The notes below the pieces were generated by a model. That model searched no databases. It was given only the letters and a program-made list of their open reading frames with translations, and had not been told where the DNA came from. Made by a program: the position numbers and the translations under genes. Positions 17,230 to 59,938 of a stretch of 64,000 bases of DNA are shown here, piece after piece. This DNA comes from Sinorhizobium terangae. GTDB lineage: Bacteria; Pseudomonadota; Alphaproteobacteria; Rhizobiales; Rhizobiaceae. How positions within the stretch are numbered: position 1 is the first letter of the stretch; each line of letters starts with the position of its first letter. The DNA lies in contig NZ_WITC01000127.1 in assembly GCF_009601505.1 (NCBI RefSeq), forward strand, positions 1 through 64,000, read 5' to 3'.

Positions 17230-17336
17230 CTACAGCGCCGCGCGTCTTTTTAGACGCGCAAAGGGCGCTGTAGCACTTTGAATTGCTGCATGTTCTTGTC
17301 CTTTAATCGGTTACGATCAAAGGCGACATGCAGTAG
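17230..17336 (+). repeat. RIME-like palindromic element, full copy
   Basis: A first palindrome has outer arms CTACAGCGCC/GGGCGCTGTAG and an inner stem GCGCGTCT/AGACGCGC. After the linker CACTTTGAATTG comes a second palindrome with CTGCATG/CATGCAG outer arms and CCTTTAATCG/CGATCAAAGG inside. This is the standard unit for all copies in the window. It separates the convergent transpeptidase and oxidoreductase genes. Confidence 0.85.
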
Positions 17337-43695: not shown

Positions 43696-43809
43696 CGGCC
43701 ATATCCCCCTCAAAAGCCAAGCAGCGAAGTGGCAGTAAATCAGATTTTTCATTTGCCACAACATAAAATTGCGGGGCTTTGGGGGGGTAAGCGAGGCGAA
43801 CGAATGATG

Positions 43810-44049
43810 TCAGCGCAGCTTCTTGATTTTGGCCTCCTCGACAGCGGCAATGAAGGATGCGCGGGCCTGCTCCCACGGATAGATGCCGAACATTGCATCG
43901 GTGCACTGATTGAGCGCGGTCAGGTAAGCGGCTCCCTGTTCGATGGTCCAATGCTCATTGAGCAGGCGAACCGCATGAGCTGGCGTCCAGACGATCTCGA
44001 CTCGCTCGCCCAATTGGACGATGACGGCTTCTCCCCAGTTTTCGTTCAT
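43810..44049 (-). CDS. DUF982 protein
   Basis: The 79-residue protein has the family pattern VWTPAHAVRLLNEHWTIEQG, then AMFGIYPWEQARASFIAAVE. DUF982 genes are numerous in Sinorhizobium and their function is unknown. The ATG follows TTGAGGC. Confidence 0.88.
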   Translation of the reverse strand: MNENWGEAVIVQLGERVEIVWTPAHAVRLLNEHWTIEQGAAYLTALNQCTDAMFGIYPWEQARASFIAAVEEAKIKKLR

Positions 44050-44594
44050 TGCCTCAACTCTGCGGTCAATGCGGGCCTAACCGTACACGCAGGCAATGGT
44101 TCCTGCGAACCGGAGTGTCCTGACGATAAAGTCACTAGCGCAGCCTCCTACTCGAAGGCAGGCGCAACCGTAGCCTTCGCAACTGTGGCCGCGGTCCAGA
44201 GCACGCCAGCCCAGCCGGCAGAAGGCGGAGCAGCGAGGCCCCAATCCAGAAGGCGAGCATCGTCGCGCTCACCTTCCGAAAGTTACTCGGCAGTCGGAGG
44301 GAGGGTCTCGGAGGACTCGCCCGCATGCGAGCCGAAGGGGGCCCGCTCTGGGAAAAAGCCAGGAAATTGACAGCGGTACGGTGGGTTTTCCTTTATTATG
44401 ACAATAACAATTGTGATACTTTGATGACAGGCAGCCGGCGCATGCGTTTGGGGGGCTGCCGCGGAGAATGTCCTGCTCCGAAGGGGGGAAGATCATTTGG
44501 GCTGATGCTGGCTCGGCAGATTTGCCGATAGGGAGGCTTGTCTCGTCAGCGATTACCATCGAAGCGTTAGAGGGGGCGGAAAGGGAGACCTGAC
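44050..44594. other. Intergenic region upstream of the DUF5132 gene
   Basis: About 545 bases, locally AT-rich at 44385-44430, with no supported gene in either direction. It contains the promoter of the gene at 44595. No clear FixK/FNR box or metal-regulator operator was seen. Confidence 0.5.
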
Positions 44595-44873
44595 ATGGCT
44601 TTACTCGAAGACGCATTGAAAGGTAACGTCCTCACCAGCGTTGCCGTCGGCGTTGGCGCACTGATGCTCGCGCCGATCGTTGTTCCCATAGCAAGACCGA
44701 TGATCAAGGCCGTCATCAAGGCCGGCCTGGTTGCCTATGATCAGGGCCGGATTGCTGCGGCTGAACTCGGCGAAGGCTACGAAGATCTCGTGGCTGAAGC
44801 GCGTGCCGAAATGGGGAGTCCCAACGGTGGGACGGAGCCCGCTAAACGTCCGGCGGCGAAATCAACATCGTAA
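44595..44873 (+). CDS. DUF5132 small membrane-associated protein
   Basis: The 92-residue protein begins MALLEDALKGNVLTSVAVGV and has one hydrophobic segment (VGVGALMLAPIVVPIARPMI) followed by an amphipathic helix and a polar tail, the DUF5132 pattern. The ATG follows AGGGAG. Relatives are often found near P-type ATPases and HMA-like-domain proteins, as here, where such genes follow at 45037, 48499 and 50862. Function unknown; membrane assembly is inference. Confidence 0.7.
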   Translation: MALLEDALKGNVLTSVAVGVGALMLAPIVVPIARPMIKAVIKAGLVAYDQGRIAAAELGEGYEDLVAEARAEMGSPNGGTEPAKRPAAKSTS

Positions 44874-44921
44874 CGGCGAAAAGCAGAGACAGACACGTAA
44901 TCACCACATCGCCGGCAGCCT

Positions 44922-45010
44922 GCCGCATGTTTCTTGAATCGTAGCCGGTTCACCGACATGCAGCAATTCAACTTGCTACAGCGCCCATCCGATAAGACGC
45001 GCGGTGCTAG
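44922..45010 (-). repeat. RIME-like palindromic element (degenerate, reverse orientation)
   Basis: GCATGTTTCTTGAATCG...CGACATGCAG, linker AATTCAACTTGCTACAG and GATAAGACGCGCGGTGCTAG are present. It lies directly upstream of the P-type ATPase gene and may supply part of its leader. Confidence 0.75.
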
Positions 45011-45036
45011 AGAAGCTGCCGGCGAGGGACGGTCGT

Positions 45037-48000
45037 ATGCCCCAAATGGCAACAGGTGGGCCACGCAGGCGCGAAAGGCCCGGGTCGAGCAGCGGCGGCG
45101 CACACGGTCGCCAAGGCGACCTTCAGGATCAGCCGCAAGGTGTGGCCGTTGCCGATGCCGTTGCGCCAACGCCTGTCTCCATCCGGCTGGTGCACGCCGC
45201 GGCACCCGGGAGAGCGCGTCTTCATATCGATGCGCTCGTGGAAAGCAACCAGGTTCAGAGATTTCTCGAGCGTACTCTCCCTGCGATTGGCGGCGTTTCC
45301 GGTGCCGCGGCGAGTCCGCTCACCGGCAATCTGCTCGTTCATTACGATCCAGCCACGCCACTCGAGGCGATCATCGGGCGGATCATCGAGCTCCTGCAAA
45401 GCGGCATCGGGCCGTCCGACGACGATTCCCGTGACAAAAAGGGCTGGCACCATCTGGACACGGAAGCGGTAGCGACCGACCTAGCGACGTCCCGCACACG
45501 TGGATTATCCGAAGACGAGGCGCGGGAGCGCCTGGTGGCTGCGGGAAGCAACGCTCTACCAGCGCTTCCAACGCGCTCCAACCTCGGCATCTTTCTCGCC
45601 CAGTTCGATAGCGTACCCGTCGCGCTGCTGGCCGGTGCGGCGGTCGTCTCCCTCGTCACCGGAGCCTTGCTCGAGGTCGGGGCGATTTTGGCGGTGATGG
45701 GGGTGAACGCCGCCATTGGCTACAGGACCGAGACCGGAACCGAGCGGATCATCCAGAGCCTGAACCTGCCGGCGCCGCAGGCCGCGAGAGTAATTCGCGA
45801 TGGCGATCCGCACGAGGTGGCGGCGGAGACGCTTGTCCCGGGCGATGTTCTGATGCTGGAGCGCGGCATGGTGGTGCCGGCCGACGCGCGCCTGTCCGCC
45901 GTGCGCGGACTGACCGTCAGCGAGGCGGGATTGACCGGCGAGAGCATGCCGGTCCGCAAATCCGATGCGCCCGTAGCCGTGACGCTTCCGCTCGCGGAGC
46001 GGACCAGTATGGTCTACCGCGGCACGGTGGTGACGGGCGGGAGCGGCACAGCCATTGTTGTGGCGACGGGCGCGCGGACCGAGATCGGAAGAGTTCAACA
46101 GCTCGTCGGCGCAACCTTGGCGCCGCAAACACCCATGCAGCGGCAAATGGGCGAACTGGGGCGACAACTCGGATGGCTGACGCTCTATGCGGGCGGACTC
46201 ATTGTCGGCATCGGCTGGTTGCGCGGGATCGCGCTCTACCAAGCCGCCCGATCGGCCTTGTCCCTTGTCGTGGCCGCGGTTCCAGAGGGTCTGCCCGTGC
46301 TCGCTGTTACGACACTCGCGCTCGGTGTCGAGGACCTGCGACGACGCAATATTCTCGTGCGCCGGCTCGAAGCTGTGGAGCCGATGGCAGCCGTGCAGGT
46401 CGCCTGCTTCGACAAGACCGGCACCCTGACCTTCGGCCGCATGTCCGTGGAAGTCGCCGTCTGCGGAGACCAGATTTACCAGGCTGGAGAGGGCAGTCGG
46501 CTCGACGGCCATGATGATGCCGTGGCGCACCCAAACGGAAACGACTGCTTGAGAAGGCTGCTCACGATCGGCTGTCTCTGCAGCGAGGCGGAGGTCGAGG
46601 CAGACGAAGGCGACAGTATCCTCAACGGTTCGGCTACCGAGAAGGCGCTCGTCCAGGCAGCGATCGACAGTGAAATTGACGTTGCCGCATTGCGTCGAGG
46701 GTTCCCGAAGGTGTCTCTGCAGCAACGCACCGAAACCTACCGTTTTATGGCGAGCGCGCATGCCAACAACGGTCGCCTGCTTCTCGCCGTGAAAGGAAGC
46801 CCTCTCGAAGTTCTCGATCGCTGCCGGTGGGAGGGACTGGCCGGCGGTGGGCGCAGGCCTCTGACGCCGGAGCGCCGCGACCGGATCGAGGGAATCAACG
46901 CCGAACTGGCGGATCGCGCGCTGCGGGTTCTCGGTTTTGCCTATCGCGATGTTGGCGACGAAACGCAAGACGAACCGGCGGTTGCGGAACTGACATGGGT
47001 TGGCCTCGCCGGCCTGGCCGATCCCGTCCGCCCGGGTTTGAAATCGCTGATGGCGGAGCTTCATCGGGCCGGACTCCAGACGATCATTCTGACCGGCGAT
47101 CAGCGGGCGACGGCCCGAGCCGTCGCCCATAAGGTCGGCCTGAACGGGACGGGAGACATTGACATTGTCGACGCCGTCGACGTTGACCGCATGACGGAGG
47201 CCGAATTGGCGGTTGCGGCGCGCCGGGCGCAGGCCTTCTCGCGCGTCGGCCCCGCACAGAAGCTCAAGATCATTCGTGCCCTGCAGCAATCGGGAGCCAC
47301 GGTGGCGATGATCGGCGACGGTATCAACGACAGTCCGGCGCTGCGCGCAGCCGATGTCGGTATCGCTTTGGGTCGGGACCCGTACGCAGCGGCACGCGAG
47401 ACGGCGGACGTCTATCTCGCCACGGATGATCTGGGCGGCCTCATTCCGGCAATCGAGAGAGGCCGCACCACCTTCACGAATATCCGCAAGGCGATACACT
47501 ATCTCTTCAGCACGAATTTCAGCGAGGTCCTCGTCATGCTGTGTGGCATGGCCGTGGGCCTTGGCGAGGTCCTCTCGCCGATGCAACTCCTGTGGATCAA
47601 TCTCATCTCCGACGTGCTGCCGGGACTCGGTCTCGCGATGGAGCCGCCGGAAGCCGCCGGCATGCAGGACGGGCCCATGGTCGCGGACAAAGCCCTGCCT
47701 GGAGTCCAGAATCTCGCCTCGCTCACCAGCGAGGCGGCGCTGCTCGGCTCAGGCGCCATGGCGGCAGGCCTCTACGGCGCGATGCGCTATGGGACTGCTT
47801 CGCCGATCGTGCGGACCATGACCTTCGGCGCTCTGGTGACGGCCCAACTGCTCCATGCGATCACCTGCCGCTCGTCCACGCGTAGTGTTTTCGATCGCGG
47901 ATCCAGCCCCGCCAACCCGGCACTCACGGGCATTCTGGCCGGTTCGGTGGCGGCGCAGTCGGCTGCCTTGTTCGTGCCCGGCATCCGCAGACTGCTCGGC

Positions 48001-48225
48001 CTCGCACCGCTCGGCATCCTTGATGCAGGCATCATGCTCGCCGGCGGAACGCTTCCGTTTGCAATCGCCGAGGTGCGCAAGTCGGCTCTCAGCGCCAGCA
48101 CGAGCCATGCGAGCGCGCCGCTCACCTTCACGCGAGCGCCAATGGCGCCTGCCAATGAGTCCCGCCCCAGGCTGTTGGAGGCGCCGGCCAACGTGTCATG
48201 GCTACGTCCGCATGGTGCGAAGTAA
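45037..48225 (+). CDS. P2-like P-type cation ATPase with N-terminal GRxR (HMA-like) module
   Basis: The 1062-residue protein has residues 46-115 as a degenerate heavy-metal-associated fold (VSIRLVHAAAPGRARLHI) lacking CxxC. Next come an N-terminal cation-ATPase domain, TGES at 300-303, PEGLP at 416-420 in the ion-binding helix, the phosphorylation site DKTGTLT with Asp459, and GDGIND at 760-765. The C-terminus has four to six helices with LLWINLISDVLPGLGLAMEPPE. PEGLP and the C-terminus are P2-type (Ca/Mg/Mn-like), whereas an HMA fold is normally P1B-type, so this is a hybrid layout. The ATG at 45037 is chosen because a GTG further upstream lies in the RIME copy. The transported ion is unknown. 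Confidence 0.85.
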   Translation: MPQMATGGPRRRERPGSSSGGAHGRQGDLQDQPQGVAVADAVAPTPVSIRLVHAAAPGRARLHIDALVESNQVQRFLERTLPAIGGVSGAAASPLTGNLLVHYDPATPLEAIIGRIIELLQSGIGPSDDDSRDKKGWHHLDTEAVATDLATSRTRGLSEDEARERLVAAGSNALPALPTRSNLGIFLAQFDSVPVALLAGAAVVSLVTGALLEVGAILAVMGVNAAIGYRTETGTERIIQSLNLPAPQAARVIRDGDPHEVAAETLVPGDVLMLERGMVVPADARLSAVRGLTVSEAGLTGESMPVRKSDAPVAVTLPLAERTSMVYRGTVVTGGSGTAIVVATGARTEIGRVQQLVGATLAPQTPMQRQMGELGRQLGWLTLYAGGLIVGIGWLRGIALYQAARSALSLVVAAVPEGLPVLAVTTLALGVEDLRRRNILVRRLEAVEPMAAVQVACFDKTGTLTFGRMSVEVAVCGDQIYQAGEGSRLDGHDDAVAHPNGNDCLRRLLTIGCLCSEAEVEADEGDSILNGSATEKALVQAAIDSEIDVAALRRGFPKVSLQQRTETYRFMASAHANNGRLLLAVKGSPLEVLDRCRWEGLAGGGRRPLTPERRDRIEGINAELADRALRVLGFAYRDVGDETQDEPAVAELTWVGLAGLADPVRPGLKSLMAELHRAGLQTIILTGDQRATARAVAHKVGLNGTGDIDIVDAVDVDRMTEAELAVAARRAQAFSRVGPAQKLKIIRALQQSGATVAMIGDGINDSPALRAADVGIALGRDPYAAARETADVYLATDDLGGLIPAIERGRTTFTNIRKAIHYLFSTNFSEVLVMLCGMAVGLGEVLSPMQLLWINLISDVLPGLGLAMEPPEAAGMQDGPMVADKALPGVQNLASLTSEAALLGSGAMAAGLYGAMRYGTASPIVRTMTFGALVTAQLLHAITCRSSTRSVFDRGSSPANPALTGILAGSVAAQSAALFVPGIRRLLGLAPLGILDAGIMLAGGTLPFAIAEVRKSALSASTSHASAPLTFTRAPMAPANESRPRLLEAPANVSWLRPHGAK

Positions 48226-48235
48226 CCAGACGCCA

Positions 48236-48318
48236 CATCACATGACAGCAGCTCAATTGGTTTGGGGATGCTTTTCGCCCTCTTTCCTGTGACGAGAACA
48301 CGAATGAGGGCAGGGGGT
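48236..48318. repeat. Degenerate MITE-like sequence
   Basis: CAGCAGCTCAATTGGT, then TTTTCGCC and GAGGGCAGGGGG match, in order, the reverse complement of the 111-bp element at 49138-49248. It is diverged and its ends are not clear. Confidence 0.5.
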
Positions 48319-48335
48319 TGCGGCACCGCGACCGG

Positions 48336-48436
48336 CTACTGCATGATCCTTAAATCGGAATCGATTTAAGGATCATGCAGCCATTCAAATTGTTACAGCG
48401 ACCTTAGCGCGTCCGATTGGACGCGCGGCCCTGTAG
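48336..48436 (-). repeat. RIME-like palindromic element, full copy
   Basis: CTACTGCATGATCC/GGATCATGCAG and CCTTAAATCG/CGATTTAAGG stems, linker CATTCAAATTGTTACAG and GCGCGTCC/GGACGCGC. It separates the convergent ATPase and HMA-like genes. Confidence 0.88.
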
Positions 48437-48498
48437 GCGCGCGGCATTTTCGCGGGTTCCCTTCAAGACGGCGTTATTGATGGGGTGGATCGAAACAA

Positions 48499-49020
48499 CT
48501 ACGCCGCGGCGGGAAGGCGTTGCTCCGCAATTTCCAGGCCGGCCGGTGCGACAGGCGTGGCTGCGGGGCCCGCGAGCCAGAGCGCAGAGCGGGTTGCTGC
48601 CTTGACACCCAGTTCGACCATCAGACCTCCCGGCTGGCGCGAGATCAACGCCAGCGCGACCTTTACGATCAGCGCGCCGAGATCCATTTCGCCCCCTGAC
48701 AGCGTGCGAATGTGTGCATCGATCCGCGCGACAGGCGGCAGCGTCTGGCGCTCGCAGACGGGTTCAGGTCGGGCATTTGCGAGATCGAGCCCGTGGTTCA
48801 GGGCGGTCACGTCACACGGTTCGTTATGCTCGATCAGAACCGTTGCGGTGAGTGGGTTGACCTGGACGGCGAGAACGCCTTCGCAGGCTAGGAGATTTGC
48901 CCGAAGTTCGTTGAAGTACGCTGCGTGATGTCGTCGTGCCGGGATCCTGATGCGCACTCGCCCCCGTGCGCGATGGATGATCTGGGCATAATTTCTGCTC
49001 GGCATTGCTCGTCTGCTCAT
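48499..49020 (-). CDS. HMA-like-domain protein with GRxR motif
   Basis: The protein (173 residues from the ATG at 49020, MSRRAMPSRNYA) has an HMA-like module (IIHRARGRVRIRIPARRHHA, then VQVNPLTATVLIEHNE), a Pro-rich linker and one hydrophobic segment (LGALIVKVALALISRQPGG) near the C-terminus. The position of the metal-binding CxxC is occupied by RGRVR. Alternative starts reach 49083. It is a single-domain companion of the P-type ATPase N-terminus and converges with that gene. The function is unknown; adaptor or assembly roles are inference. Confidence 0.7.
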   Translation of the reverse strand: MSRRAMPSRNYAQIIHRARGRVRIRIPARRHHAAYFNELRANLLACEGVLAVQVNPLTATVLIEHNEPCDVTALNHGLDLANARPEPVCERQTLPPVARIDAHIRTLSGGEMDLGALIVKVALALISRQPGGLMVELGVKAATRSALWLAGPAATPVAPAGLEIAEQRLPAAA

Positions 49021-49110
49021 CGTGTTCCGGAATTTCCAGCCCCACATGGGGTCCGCGTTGCGGTCCATATAGGCCGCGAGCATGACAGTATGACTACAGT
49101 CGGAATGGCC

Positions 49111-49300
49111 TTTAGCGCCGCGCGTTCAATCGGATGCCACAGTACACGACAGCAGCCAGCTTCTGCCTCGTTGGTTGGGTACGGCAATGCATCTCCTCCT
49201 GCCCTCGTTCCAGGCGAAATACCAATTGAGCTGCCGTCGCGTATTGTGATCGGACGCGCAAAGGTTGCTGTCGCATCCGATTTGAGCAGCCATGCAGTAG
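49111..49300 (+). repeat. RIME-like element interrupted by an insertion
   Basis: AGCGCCGCGCGTTCAATCGG at 49114-49133 is the left half of a RIME first palindrome. The right half GATCGGACGCGCAAAGGTTGC resumes at 49248, with CATGCAGTAG at the end (49291-49300). The insertion at 49138-49248 sits in the loop. The second palindrome is strongly degenerate. Confidence 0.65.
49138..49248. mobile_element. 111-bp MITE-like insertion
   Basis: The ends CACAGTACACGACAGCAGC and the complement of the other end, CACAATACGCGACGGCAGC, agree at 16 of 19 positions; all differences are transitions. The flanks are ATCGGATGC and ATCGGACGC, a 9-bp near-perfect target duplication inside a RIME loop. There is no coding capacity. 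A related, degraded copy is at about 48236-48318. Confidence 0.6.
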
Positions 49301-49322
49301 CCGCTCCGCACGAAGAATGCGG

Positions 49323-50621
49323 CTACCCGATCAATTGAGAGGTGAGAAAGATAAGGCTGCCGGCGAGGGCGCCGACGATGGTGCCGTTCATGCGGATGTA
49401 CTGGAGATCGCTGCCGACGACGAGTTCCAGGCGCTCCACGAGCGTCGGACTGTCCCAGCTTCTGACGACTTCCGTCACAAACTTGCCGATCTCGTGACGC
49501 CAGGAGACCAGATATACGGCGAGTTCCTCCAGAAACGCGTCCATATGTTTCAGCATGGCCTGGTCGGTCGCAAGCGTCTTGCCGATGAGCATGCAGATCT
49601 TCTCAACGGCCGCGCGTGCTTTCGAGGTTGGCTGCGACAGGTCTTCGAGCATCACTCGCGAGGTCTCTTGCCAAACGGCGGCGACCCAGGCCTGAACATC
49701 CGGATGCTCGAGGATACGATTTTTGGACGCGTTGATCTGCTTGCGCTGCTCCGGGGAATTGATGAGCTCATTGATCAGATGGGCGAGCGCCTCGCGAAAC
49801 TTAAATCGCACCTCGCTCTCCGGCTCCCTGAGGTCGTTGAGGAGATCGGCACAGCCGGTGATGATCGCGTCGGCAATTTTCCGGTTTATGGTCTTCGGGA
49901 TCCACCAGCGACTGCGTTGCTGAACCAGAAGGTAGATCTGGTCGCGGTTGTCTTCGAGCCACTGGGCGGCGACGCCCAGGACGCGTTCGAACAGGACATC
50001 CGCTTCGCCGCTTGCGGTAACCATGTGAATCACGCGGCCCATGACGGGCGCGATATCTGTTTGCCGGAGCTGCCTGCCGAGCGTGCGCCGGACGAACTCG
50101 CGCAGGTCGTGACTATCAAGAGAGCGAACGAGGTAGGGCATCGCTGCGACGACGGCGTTTGCGATGACCGGTGCAGTCTCCGGGGTCGACAGCCATCTCG
50201 CAAAACGCTGCGCCGCGTTGGCGCTCTTGAGCTTGCGCAGCAACACTTCCTGGGTCAGGAAGTGACGTTCAATGAAACGGCCAAGGGTCTGCCCGATGCG
50301 CTCCTTGCTGTTCGGGATAATGGCCGTGTGCGGAATGGGAATGCCCAACGGGTGCCGAAAAAGCGCCGTCACCGCGAACCAATCGGCAAGCCCGCCGACA
50401 ATTCCCGCCTCGGCCGTGGCGCGAAGCAGCCTTGTGGCGAAGCCGGGGTCGGCAACGAAATGTGTTCCGACAAAGACGGCGCCCATGGTGACAAGAAGCG
50501 ATGTCGCCAGGGTGCGATTGCGCTTGAGGCGCCGCCGCAGGAAATCTTCGGAACGAGGCGGCGGTAGGGTGCCTGAAGCCGGGGTTGGGGTATCAAGTGA
50601 TCGAATGCGATCCGGTGCCAT
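49323..50621 (-). CDS. DUF445 membrane protein
   Basis: The 432-residue protein has an N-terminal helix (TLATSLLVTMGAVFVGTHF), the diagnostic AEAGIVGGLADWFAVTALFRHPLGIPIPHTAIIP, a long helical, partly coiled-coil middle, and a C-terminal hydrophobic helix (GTIVGALAGSLIFLTSQ). This is the DUF445/YjiN type. The ATG follows AGAGAGG. It lies between two GRxR-module genes on the strand of the first and is probably part of the same neighbourhood function; the family function is unknown. Confidence 0.88.
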   Translation of the reverse strand: MAPDRIRSLDTPTPASGTLPPPRSEDFLRRRLKRNRTLATSLLVTMGAVFVGTHFVADPGFATRLLRATAEAGIVGGLADWFAVTALFRHPLGIPIPHTAIIPNSKERIGQTLGRFIERHFLTQEVLLRKLKSANAAQRFARWLSTPETAPVIANAVVAAMPYLVRSLDSHDLREFVRRTLGRQLRQTDIAPVMGRVIHMVTASGEADVLFERVLGVAAQWLEDNRDQIYLLVQQRSRWWIPKTINRKIADAIITGCADLLNDLREPESEVRFKFREALAHLINELINSPEQRKQINASKNRILEHPDVQAWVAAVWQETSRVMLEDLSQPTSKARAAVEKICMLIGKTLATDQAMLKHMDAFLEELAVYLVSWRHEIGKFVTEVVRSWDSPTLVERLELVVGSDLQYIRMNGTIVGALAGSLIFLTSQLIG

Positions 50622-50660
50622 GGCATAACCTCTCTGATCGACGCGCTGCCGGGGCTCAGC

Positions 50661-50704
50661 CTACAGCGACCTTTGCACGTCCGATTGGACGAGCGGCGCC
50701 GTAG
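50661..50704. repeat. RIME-like element, first palindrome only
   Basis: CTACAGCGACC...GGCGCCGTAG outer arms with a CACGTCC/GGACGAG inner stem, 40 bases upstream of the DUF445 gene. Confidence 0.7.
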
Positions 50705-50861
50705 AAAACTTTTCAACACCCGACAACCACAGAATCAACAAGCATGGCAACAGCTGCTATAATGTTCGTTCGGGCGTGGATCGCTGCCCGTGGTCAGGCG
50801 TGGGTGTCTAACGATACCCTGATACATCCGTGTTGGTCACCCTTTGGGGGAGATGGACGAC

Positions 50862-51440
50862 ATGCTGCCGATCGCCTTCCTTGAACATGAGTCACCCGGG
50901 CGCGTGCGCCTGAAAGTTCCTTCCAAGCGTGGCGATGCATCATTCTTCCAGGGCGTCGCGCGGGATCTCGCCGACAACGGCGTTATCGCCGAGCTGAAGA
51001 CGAACCATCAGACAGGTAGTATCACCATATGGCACTCGAGTGATATCGACGCGCTCCGCGACGACGCCGCGGCCCGCCGTATCTTCGAGCTTCGTGCCGA
51101 GCGACCCGGCACACTCAGCAACCGCGCCGTCGTGCGCGCGCTGAAACCCGTGGGTCACACCGGTCTTCTCAAGGCGGCTGGCGCGGGGCTTCTCGGGTTC
51201 GGTCTTTTGCAGGTCTTGCGAAGGCGAACATTGGGCCCTGCAAGCGAATTCTTCTGGCATTCTTACGCAGCGCACCGCCTCCTGGGGAGCCCTATGTTGT
51301 CCTCGGCTCTGGGAGGGATCGGCCTTCTGCAGCTCATGCGGGGGCGCGTGCTCGGATCGGCTTCGGGATTGTTGTTCTATGCCGTGGTGGTTCACTCCCT
51401 AGTCCATGCCGTCGAGAAAGAGCGCGAGCGCGCCGAGTGA
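50862..51440 (+). CDS. GRxR-module membrane protein with internal repeat
   Basis: The 192-residue protein begins MLPIAFLEHESPGRVRLKVP, the third copy in this region of the HMA-like GRxR module, with the strand pattern ending TGSITIWHSSD. After a linker come two hydrophobic repeats, LGFGLLQVLRRRTLGPAS and LGGIGLLQLMRGRVLGSAS, then a last helix (GLLFYAVVVHSLVHAV). The ATG at 50862 is chosen because GGGGGAG lies nine bases upstream; an ATG nine bases earlier is too close. It probably belongs to the same system as the ATPase and the gene at 48499. Confidence 0.7.
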   Translation: MLPIAFLEHESPGRVRLKVPSKRGDASFFQGVARDLADNGVIAELKTNHQTGSITIWHSSDIDALRDDAAARRIFELRAERPGTLSNRAVVRALKPVGHTGLLKAAGAGLLGFGLLQVLRRRTLGPASEFFWHSYAAHRLLGSPMLSSALGGIGLLQLMRGRVLGSASGLLFYAVVVHSLVHAVEKERERAE

Positions 51441-52018
51441 CAGACTCGGCCCAACGTCGGCTACCTGCGTCTTTTCAGCCGCACAAAGTCGCTGTAGCAC
51501 TTTGAATTGCTACGGCGCTTTCATGAGCCTCTGACAGGCGTCACCTGTTCTTCCATCACCCGTTTCTCGCCATGCTTTCGTGGAGGCGAGATCTGAGAAA
51601 GGCTGAGGCAGGTAACGGAGGTTTGTCGAGACCGCTGGCCAAATAGGACCAGCTTACAGTCCTTCCACATTTCAGTTAGGGGCTGGCAGATTCTAAGACC
51701 CTTGCGTCCGTCTTATAAGACTAAAGTCCGTGGCGCGGAGCAGCCGGCTCCCGTAAACTCCTATTATAGTAAATAGGATGACCTCTGTTGTCGGTCTGTG
51801 CCAAAGGCATGGGCCGTTTTTTTCTGCATCCAGTAGAAAAAACTACAATACCCAAAAAAGCATCCAGAATGCCCTTGCCATGTAAAGAATGTAGCCTCGA
51901 ACGATTGTCCGCGTACGAGGCTAATAACTTACGCCACCCTTACTAGACCGTTGGATATATTTACAAATCTTGGTGGGAATGTGAAGTTTCGGCTGCAACT
52001 CACTCAGGATGCCAGGCG
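51441..52018. other. AT-rich intergenic region with RIME fragment
   Basis: At 51461-51517 a degenerate RIME piece (GCGTCTTTTCAGCCGCACAAAG, then CTGTAGCACTTTGAATTGC) is visible in two parts. The segment 51700-52010 is much more AT-rich than the window average and likely contains the promoter of the acyltransferase gene. No gene is supported. Confidence 0.5.
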
Positions 52019-53134
52019 TTGGTCGACCTGATCACAAAACCCAGTGATTCCGCGGTTGAACTGCATGCTACGCTCTTGACGAGTGGCCATCTCGTCTACA
52101 TCCACTATTTTCGTGCAGTGGCAATTCTTCAGATTCTCGTTCTGCATGCATGTCGTGTCTTCATGCTGCGGGGCTTTGACGAGCAAGTTCCTCCGTCGAA
52201 TCGCTTCTTAATCGTGAACGACATTCTGTTTCATGACACGACGATGTATTTGGCGATAATATCCGGAATAATTTATTCAACGCGTCTTTCAAAGAGACCC
52301 ACCTTTCTGTTTTACAAGCAGCGATTCCTAAGAGTCGTCGTGCCATATATCGTGATGTCTATGCTGTTCTCGACGCTACTATTCTTCAGATGGAACGGCG
52401 TTGAGGGCATCCACGATTTAATCGCGCTCACAAAGTTTCTTTCCTACAACGTTCTTTGGGGCGAAGCTCAAAACACCTATTGGTATATCCCGGTGGTTGT
52501 ACTGCTCTACGCGCTCAGTCCGATCCTTCATCGGCTGCTTACCACTGCCGCGAGATACCCGATGCTAATTGCGGCCGTTACCTTGCCGCTCTTTTTCTCT
52601 CGGACAGGAACCGACGTCACGATCGCCACGTGCATCTTCTTCACCGGCACCTACGTCATCGGCCTGTACATGGGTGAGGACGTGGAGGGACGTTTGGGCG
52701 CGATCGCCCGATATCTGCCGCTGCTCGGCGTTGTTGCGGCTATCACGACGGCTTTACTCTGGTTCCTATACACTCATGGCATAGACAAATGGGGGCCGAC
52801 ATCGCTGCGGGAGAGCGTACATTTTGTCCAAAAGCTCGCTCTTGGCGCTCTCATCCTGATCTGGCTTTGGCGACGGTGCAAGGACCTTCCCCTGGTGGTT
52901 GCACGCACTTTGGATCTGGTCGCATTGAGTGCTTTCGGACTTTATCTGCTGCACGGCTTCGTTTTTCGCATCTGTCTTCGGATCGCGTCCGCTGTTGTTG
53001 CATCACCGGATTCGACCTGGAACTTGATCGGCGGAGGAGCCATCATCTTCTGTCTCGGATTGCTCAGCTGCCTAGTGATCATCTTCCTGTTGCGCGTACT
53101 GCTCGGCAAGCATTCACGCTTGTTGGTTGGCTGA
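52019..53134 (+). CDS. Acyltransferase family 3 membrane protein
   Basis: The 371-residue protein has about ten hydrophobic helices and the family opening VYIHYFRAVAILQILVLHACR with a conserved His, and later TYWYIPVVVLLYALSPIL. Such proteins transfer acyl groups to exported sugars (for example OafA or NodX types). The start is a TTG at 52019, about 25 residues ahead of helix 1; no ATG fits before residue 48. Its lower GC content and the AT-rich upstream stretch suggest acquisition by transfer. Confidence 0.75.
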   Translation: MVDLITKPSDSAVELHATLLTSGHLVYIHYFRAVAILQILVLHACRVFMLRGFDEQVPPSNRFLIVNDILFHDTTMYLAIISGIIYSTRLSKRPTFLFYKQRFLRVVVPYIVMSMLFSTLLFFRWNGVEGIHDLIALTKFLSYNVLWGEAQNTYWYIPVVVLLYALSPILHRLLTTAARYPMLIAAVTLPLFFSRTGTDVTIATCIFFTGTYVIGLYMGEDVEGRLGAIARYLPLLGVVAAITTALLWFLYTHGIDKWGPTSLRESVHFVQKLALGALILIWLWRRCKDLPLVVARTLDLVALSAFGLYLLHGFVFRICLRIASAVVASPDSTWNLIGGGAIIFCLGLLSCLVIIFLLRVLLGKHSRLLVG

Positions 53135-53153: not shown

Positions 53154-53259
53154 CTGCATGATTTATCCTTAAATCGGAATCGATTTAAGGATAAATCATG
53201 CAGCAAATCAAAGTGCTACAGCGGCCTTGGCGCGTCCGATTGGACGCGCGGGCACTGTA
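53154..53259 (-). repeat. RIME-like palindromic element, full copy
   Basis: CTGCATGATTTATCC/GGATAAATCATGCAG with a perfect CTTAAATCGGAATCGATTTAAG core, then linker AAATCAAAGTGCTACAG and GCGCGTCC/GGACGCGC. Its second palindrome is among the best preserved in the window. Confidence 0.88.
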
Positions 53260-53368
53260 AAGCGCGTCGCGTTCATCGGACGCATGCGACACGCTTTAGG
53301 TCACTGCTTTTATGCGTGTCGCTCAAAACCGCTGCGCACTTTTGGGCGACATGTATTAGCCCAAAACA

Positions 53369-59780: not shown

Positions 59781-59938
59781 TGGTTTCGGATCGCGCACTC
59801 TTCCCGGAGCGCTCTCTATACCATCCATGAAAGAAGCTTTTAGTCGCTCGCCGGGGCGCGCACCTTGATGCCGATCAAGGAGACGCAGCGAAGGCGAAAG
59901 TGCGGGGCAGGGCCTCGCTGGCCCTATTCTTATGCCGG

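Follow-up and report, generated by a model that had tools for sequence, protein, structure and literature searches.

Does a P-type ATPase of the calcium-pump class form part of a multi-protein membrane assembly, in a field that mostly examines P-type ATPases one protein at a time? The question is raised by five genes at positions 44595-51440 of a 64,000-nucleotide stretch of Sinorhizobium terangae DNA (contig NZ_WITC01000127.1, positions 1 to 64,000; the window, which is part of contig C32 in a genome of 7.08 Mb), for which the nearest named loci are those of Ensifer. Open reading frames (ORFs) and Pfam matches identified these genes as encoding a DUF5132 protein, a P-type ATPase, a small HMA_2 protein (protein a), a DUF445 protein and a small HMA_2-type protein (protein b). 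The five gene types are conserved together, an HMA-like module devoid of CxxC is carried by the pump and by both small proteins, and the pump has a SERCA-like ion site. The locus is real and conserved, a P2 variant of the assemblies that combine a P-type ATPase with small proteins, and this little-studied gene cluster suggests a multi-protein pump assembly. The reading that we prefer, and to which we give about an even chance, is that a P2 divalent-cation pump of the Ca2+/Mn2+ type would be tied into a membrane assembly, with HMA_2 modules for docking and DUF5132 as a scaffold. Such an assembly is best read as parallel to, yet not a member of, the P1B6/ferrosome-type and PacL systems. An initial annotation of this DNA had placed the five ORFs at the positions listed here, and Pfam confirmed its DUF5132, P2 ATPase and DUF445 assignments.

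44386..44430, + strand: upstream block on the DUF5132 side, conserved in four version A loci
44595..44873, + strand: DUF5132 protein, 92 amino acids (ORF, Pfam)
45004..48225, + strand: P2-type ATPase, 1073 amino acids from GTG 45004 (ORF, Pfam)
45184..45399, + strand: HMA_2 module of the ATPase (GRAR), segment used in alignment A7 (Pfam, alignment)
48499..49083, - strand: small HMA_2 protein a, 194 amino acids (GRVR; ORF, Pfam, model)
49323..50621, - strand: DUF445 protein, 432 amino acids (ORF, Pfam)
50844..51440, + strand: small HMA_2-type protein b, 198 amino acids from TTG (ORF, model)

Two of the starts given in the initial annotation, 45037 and 50862, are ATGs internal to the ORFs that open at 45004 and 50844, and orthologous ORFs do begin there. 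ATG 45037 is likelier than GTG 45004, with M12 invariant in 11 sequences, and ATG 50862 is likewise likelier than the TTG.

The ATPase contains the Pfam domains HMA_2 (residues 63-132), Cation_ATPase_N, E1-E2_ATPase, Cation_ATPase and Cation_ATPase_C together with the PEGLP and DKTGT motifs. This bears out the initial view of an HMA-like N-terminus (HMA_2, 31.3 bits) joined to a P2-type pump. Its closest solved relatives are SPCA1 (389 bits), LMCA1 and SERCA. In the alignment with SERCA1, N768, E771, N796, T799 and D800 correspond to N838, E841, N866, S869 and D870, and the Glu of PEGLP is E428. Equivalents of E309, N768, E771, N796 and D800 were present in all 30 distinct P2 pumps with HMA_2, as was S or T at T799, so that PEGLP and the ligands of transmembrane helices M5 and M6, which characterize P2A Ca2+-ATPases, occur throughout (30/30). 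The M8 position, a Glu (E908) in SERCA, is Gln in 30/30 of these pumps; among five plasmid-borne P2 pumps without HMA_2 it is Glu in four and Gln in one. The scores against TIGR01522 (500.8 vs 798.3 bits) and TIGR01116 (419.7 vs 703.4 bits) are under the curated cut-offs. In a midpoint-rooted maximum-likelihood tree of 50 ATPases (15 P1B and 35 P2 rows; long branches for L044, L136 and L046, and uneven composition in 12 rows), the P1B and P2 rows were separated at 100/100, indicating that the window pump is not P1B. The 30 rows of P2 pumps with HMA_2 fell on one side of a branch supported at just 41/36, and for this reason their single origin is not shown. The 21 Rhizobiales rows were grouped at 100/100. 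Version A, to which the window belongs, grouped with Bradyrhizobium (99/95), Microvirga being added at 85/55; other Ensifer, R. sullae and Mesorhizobium have version B, which stood separately. This split within Ensifer would reflect either transfer or an old duplication.

The module shared by the three proteins is named HMA_2 in Pfam (PF19991). With a curated cut-off of 30 bits, the ATPase (31.3) and protein a (30.2) were both matched, and protein b stayed under it at 19.7 bits; its identity as a module is backed by its own model and by the invariant H, G, R, R and L seen when 15 small proteins of both kinds were aligned. Across 28 aligned modules, taken from the window and from twelve loci, two Arg columns alone were invariant; the signature is of the H-x3-G-R-x-R type. 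At E<=1, HMA_2 was matched by 27 of these 28 modules and plain HMA (PF00403) by 13 (best 6.9e-5); protein a scored 13.1 bits against PF00403, below its cut-off of 24.8. Among 126 distinct modules from the loci examined (near-copies counted), none contained CxxC within the first 45 residues. GRx[RK] was found in 110, a His plus xRx[RK] with another residue for the Gly in 13, and other patterns in three, although this count leans towards the motif because the module HMM (hidden Markov model) was made from 28 GRxR-type sequences. A His stands four residues ahead of the Gly of GRx[RK] in 79/126 modules; the window ATPase module has Ala in this column. When the profile was aligned with CopA, position 24 fell on a Cys, the second Cys of CxxC in CopA, and GRxR occupied positions 9-12; the Pfam HMA coordinates of protein a and of an L098 ATPase agree with this offset. 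GRxR thus lies where the first strand bulges, about 12 residues upstream of the place of the first Cys, rather than replacing CxxC as was first proposed.

The modules share an HMA-like fold, as indicated by models for two of them and by Pfam and the sequence profile for that of the ATPase; the test of a common fold set in the initial annotation was run in this way and supports one fold. The AlphaFold model of protein a has strands 34-39 and 42-46, helix 54-65 and strands 70-76 and 81-86, so that module residues 34-95 form an HMA-like unit, with a block pLDDT (predicted local distance difference test) of 84-94 over residues 31-90 and low values elsewhere. That of protein b has strands 10-17 and 20-24, helix 32-43, strands 48-54 and 59-64, helix 68-77 and strand 82-84. 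Outside the module, both models are of low confidence. Foldseek searches of the PDB gave no E-value <0.001 for either protein. For protein a, an RNA polymerase II subunit ranked first (E 0.0038) and MerP second (E 0.012, probability 1.00, TM-score by target 0.66), followed by many HMA domains; for protein b, an HMA domain ranked first (E 0.030, probability 1.00, TM-score 0.67), with HMA and unrelated chains mixed below. Searching solved structures with the 28-module profile found HMA domains of copper/zinc ATPases and copper chaperones; the lowest E-value for a whole sequence, 2.3e-10, combines two domains that singly reach 0.0016 and 0.004, and unrelated chains, among them a designed repeat protein (2.8e-6) and ribosomal eL31 (0.16), are also on the list of 40. 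Both small proteins had been credited with hydrophobic C-termini, which holds for protein b, with one strong segment (1.84), and fails for protein a, whose best value over 19 residues is 1.42.

The HMA kinship could also mean that the HMA_2 modules bind metal as chaperone or sensor domains. The small proteins would then deliver a divalent metal to the pump, and His or other residues would stand in for CxxC. The His four residues before the Gly fits this explanation, as do the nearby metal-resistance genes (chrB by Pfam; ars-like and copper-like ORFs by reading). However, CxxC is missing from all 126 modules, invariance across 28 modules is limited to the two Arg, the window ATPase itself has Ala in the His column and no chaperone requirement is known for P2 pumps. 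We consider this explanation unlikely.

We also examined the co-occurrence of the genes across genomes. HMA_2 was found in 15/200 relatives and 11/398 genomes of the phylum, DUF5132 in 10/200 and 3/398, and DUF445 in 42/200 relatives, the own genome being included in these counts. Because the module is so rare in both sets, three of them within 6.8 kb are not due to chance. Eleven loci with a P2 pump carrying HMA_2 were found via HMA_2 alone (the window, L033-L039, L041, L046 and L095), and these contained DUF5132 in 11/11 (in L046 by the local HMM, not Pfam), a separate small HMA_2 protein in 11/11, DUF445 in 9/11 and S-adenosylmethionine synthetase in 3/11. In contrast, the 13 loci with a P1B ATPase carrying HMA_2 from the same searches (L040, L042, L043, L044, L047, L096-L102 and L104) contained DUF5132 in 0/13 and DUF445 in 0/13; L099 and L104 lie on short contigs (7.4 and 10.4 kb), and L047 has a weak module match that lacks GRxR. 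The local HMMs were partly derived from these same loci. Among 36 named DUF5132 loci, several of which are the same records as other loci counted, 24 had a P2 pump with HMA_2 (truncated in L137), two a P1B pump with HMA_2 (both Oscillatoria), one HMA_2 only (on a 3.7-kb contig) and nine neither. A separate small HMA_2 protein accompanied the P2 pump in 22 of the 24, DUF445 in 16 and S-adenosylmethionine synthetase in six, and the two with neither of the latter are on contigs <12 kb. Within the genus (32 genomes), HMA_2 occurred in eight, and DUF5132 and DUF445 stood beside the pump in 8/8 (Fisher p 9e-7 and 6e-4, respectively, kinship ignored). Co-occurrence beyond chance was the second test set in the initial annotation, and it was run and did not refute a conserved multi-gene unit.

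The DUF5132 protein (42.9 bits, cut-off 25) has one predicted transmembrane (TM) helix at 12-30, a conserved Ala/Glu-rich stretch at 33-73 and a short polar tail. PacL shows this layout too, a TM helix and then an Ala/Glu-rich stretch, with its gene next to that of a P-type ATPase, but the tail of DUF5132 holds no His/Asp cluster of the PacL C-terminal metal-binding type. An hhalign comparison of the DUF5132 profile with the small TM proteins of four P1B loci with HMA_2 gave a probability of 91.8 (controls 0.2 and 0.9); the alignments are thin, with 4 and 13 rows, and we treat this apparent likeness as a lead. On other replicons of the genus, DUF5132 matches near 7300-8040 of L065-L067 revealed a small membrane protein (MERSLFLARLLGP...) that recurs at these three places without the pump and represents a second DUF5132 context.

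The same likeness bears on another possibility, namely that the locus is a P2 counterpart of the ferrosome, with DUF5132 and the small HMA_2 proteins giving shape to a lipid-bounded compartment that the ATPase fills. HMA_2 is common to P1B ATPases and adjoining small proteins, and 8/13 of the P1B ATPases with HMA_2 (L040, L042, L043, L096 and L098-L101) have HN in TM6 together with [YF][SA]C in TM4; four of the remainder have no HN and L104 is cut before TM6. FezB of ferrosomes is a P1B6-type ATPase. The HN in TM6 is the mark of P1B6 given in PMC9374683. Compact clusters at L096 and L098 encode small HMA_2 proteins along with small TM proteins. Ferrosome formation in C. difficile needs the membrane protein FezA (PMC12574912). 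In Cereibacter azotoformans, a related named locus lies amid iron-uptake genes: its pump, 56% identical to that of L043, adjoins an annotated HMA2 protein, with TonB receptors, FeoA and FecR around. The initial annotation had called ferrosomes only an analogy; the pump is indeed not P1B, yet with HMA_2 on P1B6-type ATPases the relation is closer than that. Against a ferrosome counterpart, the ATPase belongs to the other class, and none of the five window proteins matched DUF4405 in Pfam at E<=1, whereas FezC is described as DUF4405-like (PMC11334425). Moreover, a compartment is not indicated by the sequence, and a planar membrane platform accounts for the same parts. We hold a P2 ferrosome counterpart to be improbable, to about the same degree as the chaperone explanation. 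Two Oscillatoria loci (L135:2214-10810 and L139:1950-10810) combine three DUF5132 copies with a P1B ATPase carrying HMA_2 and encode larger proteins with strong HMA_2 module matches (93-98 bits); they could form a link between the P1B and P2 pumps.

The DUF445 protein (351 bits) has hydrophobic segments near each end, at 38-56 and 413-431, and its gene lies beside the pump again in Henriciella, Microvirga, Bradyrhizobium, Mesorhizobium and L095. At L069:5311-7355, a DUF445 gene is flanked by short pieces resembling both small HMA_2 proteins in the window order, with the pump absent. S-adenosylmethionine synthetase adjoins P2 pumps with HMA_2 at L041:10294-11460, L046:7330-9129, L095:10520-11707, L128 and L130-L134, that is, in beta-, gamma- and some alpha-proteobacterial versions and mostly where DUF445 is absent (L095 has both). 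All three Pfam domains were present in the two synthetase genes checked, and a further copy lies elsewhere in each genome checked (3/3; G213, G176 and G189). That the pump is an ordinary Ca2+ pump with loose neighbours, HMA_2 being a passive extension and DUF445 and DUF5132 passengers of a mobile resistance region, is very improbable: DUF445 does occur near ars-like or chr-like ORFs by reading, with the pump absent, in three genus genomes (L071, L072 and L073), and the affinity of the window version to Bradyrhizobium rather than to Ensifer version B is what transfer, or an old duplication, would leave, but alpha-, beta- and gamma-proteobacteria all keep the gene set, DUF445 turns up next to the pump repeatedly and DUF5132 is in 11/11 of the P2 loci with HMA_2 against 0/13 of the P1B loci.

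In the preferred reading of a docked P2 pump, the ATPase would export Ca2+ or Mn2+ from the cytoplasm, or load a membrane-bound space with it, and its N-terminal HMA_2 module would dock with those of both small proteins, of which one is probably membrane-anchored. DUF5132 would be the scaffold, the part that PacL plays for metal pumps of mycobacteria, and DUF445 a membrane partner, mostly replaced in other versions of the locus by a second S-adenosylmethionine synthetase gene. Several observations weigh against this. The Gln in place of E908 may make one ion site differ from that of SERCA. The Foldseek E-values are weak, and for protein a an RNA polymerase subunit outranks the HMA domains. Nine of the 36 DUF5132 loci (L109, L110, L123, L129, L138 and L140-L143) have neither pump nor HMA_2, although the local DUF5132 HMM was also silent in L142 and the strains of L109, L110 and L123 have a full locus elsewhere, and two of the 36 have a P1B pump with HMA_2 instead. 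DUF445 is present in 7/24 genus genomes without HMA_2, and in G003 it lies between remnants of both small HMA_2 genes, having been kept without them, so that DUF445 may have a separate membrane function. Gene order is variable, with genes on both strands. The DUF5132 protein as a member of DUF1490 or DUF6110 had to be dropped, as 13 DUF5132 proteins gave no Pfam match to either. Finally, the open-licence literature searched yielded no experiment on these genes, nor any paper on DUF5132 or on two or more of DUF5132, the HMA2 domain, P-type ATPase and DUF445 together; for the bacterial HMA_2 family no work was visible among the matches listed, which does not establish its absence.

The surroundings of the locus contain copper-like and arsenic-like (ars-like) ORFs by reading, and the chromate gene chrB (ChrB_C), OmpA and YkuD by Pfam. 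Contigs C32 and C33, of 69,527 bases each, have 67,800 bases in common without mismatch, in opposite orientation and with an offset of 1,727, which points to an assembly duplicate or a very recent duplication; the idea of two paralogous copies per genome was dropped given this identity, and the locus was counted as one copy. Plasmid carriage was considered and dropped: protein a matched one plasmid record, a 1.4-Mb Microvirga replicon that also carries the nearest plasmid-borne pump. A dispersed repeat of ~105 bases, presumably RIME, lies near 17230, 24327, 34362, 48330-48441, 53154-53266 and 63854 and also occurs in related genomes; its copies at 48346 and 53165 have a 28-base palindromic core, and it resembles a rhizobial intergenic repeat.

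The conserved block at 44386..44430 is a possible control region and had neither an Rfam match nor a FixK/FNR-type box. An upstream riboswitch (e.g. of the Mn2+ type) was rejected, as no Rfam match was found at 43700-52100 with E<=5, and seven related loci had none at gathering scores. The sole FixK/FNR match in the window, at 59865, is outside the locus, and among the loci scanned only L033 and L039/L112 (one record twice) have such a box before DUF5132. Promoter consensus sites (1 vs 2.0 in shuffles) and terminators (4 vs 6.3) showed no excess. A leader structure in four version A sequences was also discarded, with two-sided changes in 2/30 pairs being too few.

Pump platforms have been described for P1B pumps with PacL, which organises P-type ATPase clusters (PMC9374683 and PMC13043812). 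If our reading is true, a conserved P2 locus with docking-like modules extends this idea to the calcium-pump class, gives context to two Pfam families of unknown function, DUF5132 and DUF445, and provides a testable role for the HMA_2 fold, in which the HMA shape is kept and the CxxC site is gone. More speculatively, and rather doubtfully in our view, the CxxC-less HMA_2 could be a general docking code that joins P-type ATPase classes (P1B6 iron, P2 Ca2+/Mn2+) and small membrane proteins into platforms or storage compartments, with this locus as the founding P2 case, a Ca2+/Mn2+ ferrosome analogue.

Compared with known systems, the window pump resembles the PMR1/SPCA-, LMCA1- and SERCA-type P2A Ca2+/Mn2+ ATPases in domain order, PEGLP, N-x2-E in M5 and N-x3-D in M6, and differs from them by the extra N-terminal HMA_2, the Gln in M8, the TIGR scores below cut-off and the conserved partner genes. 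Its modules are like the HMA domains of PF00403 (CopA, CopZ and MerP) in fold and sequence profile, but carry GRxR in the first strand instead of CxxC. With P1B6/ferrosome-type loci the window locus has in common HMA_2 on the ATPase and on adjoining small proteins, and a small TM protein similar to DUF5132 at the profile level, whereas the pump of those loci is P1B, with [YF][SA]C in TM4 and HN in TM6, and stands on a separate branch. The PacL (DUF1490)/CtpC effluxosome and the DUF6110/P1B6 pairs likewise place a small, one-TM, Ala/Glu-rich protein by a P-type ATPase (PMC9374683 and PMC13043812). Unlike these systems, the window locus lacks both a DUF1490 or DUF6110 Pfam match and the C-terminal His/Asp metal motif, and it combines a P2 rather than a P1B pump with HMA_2 partners and DUF445.

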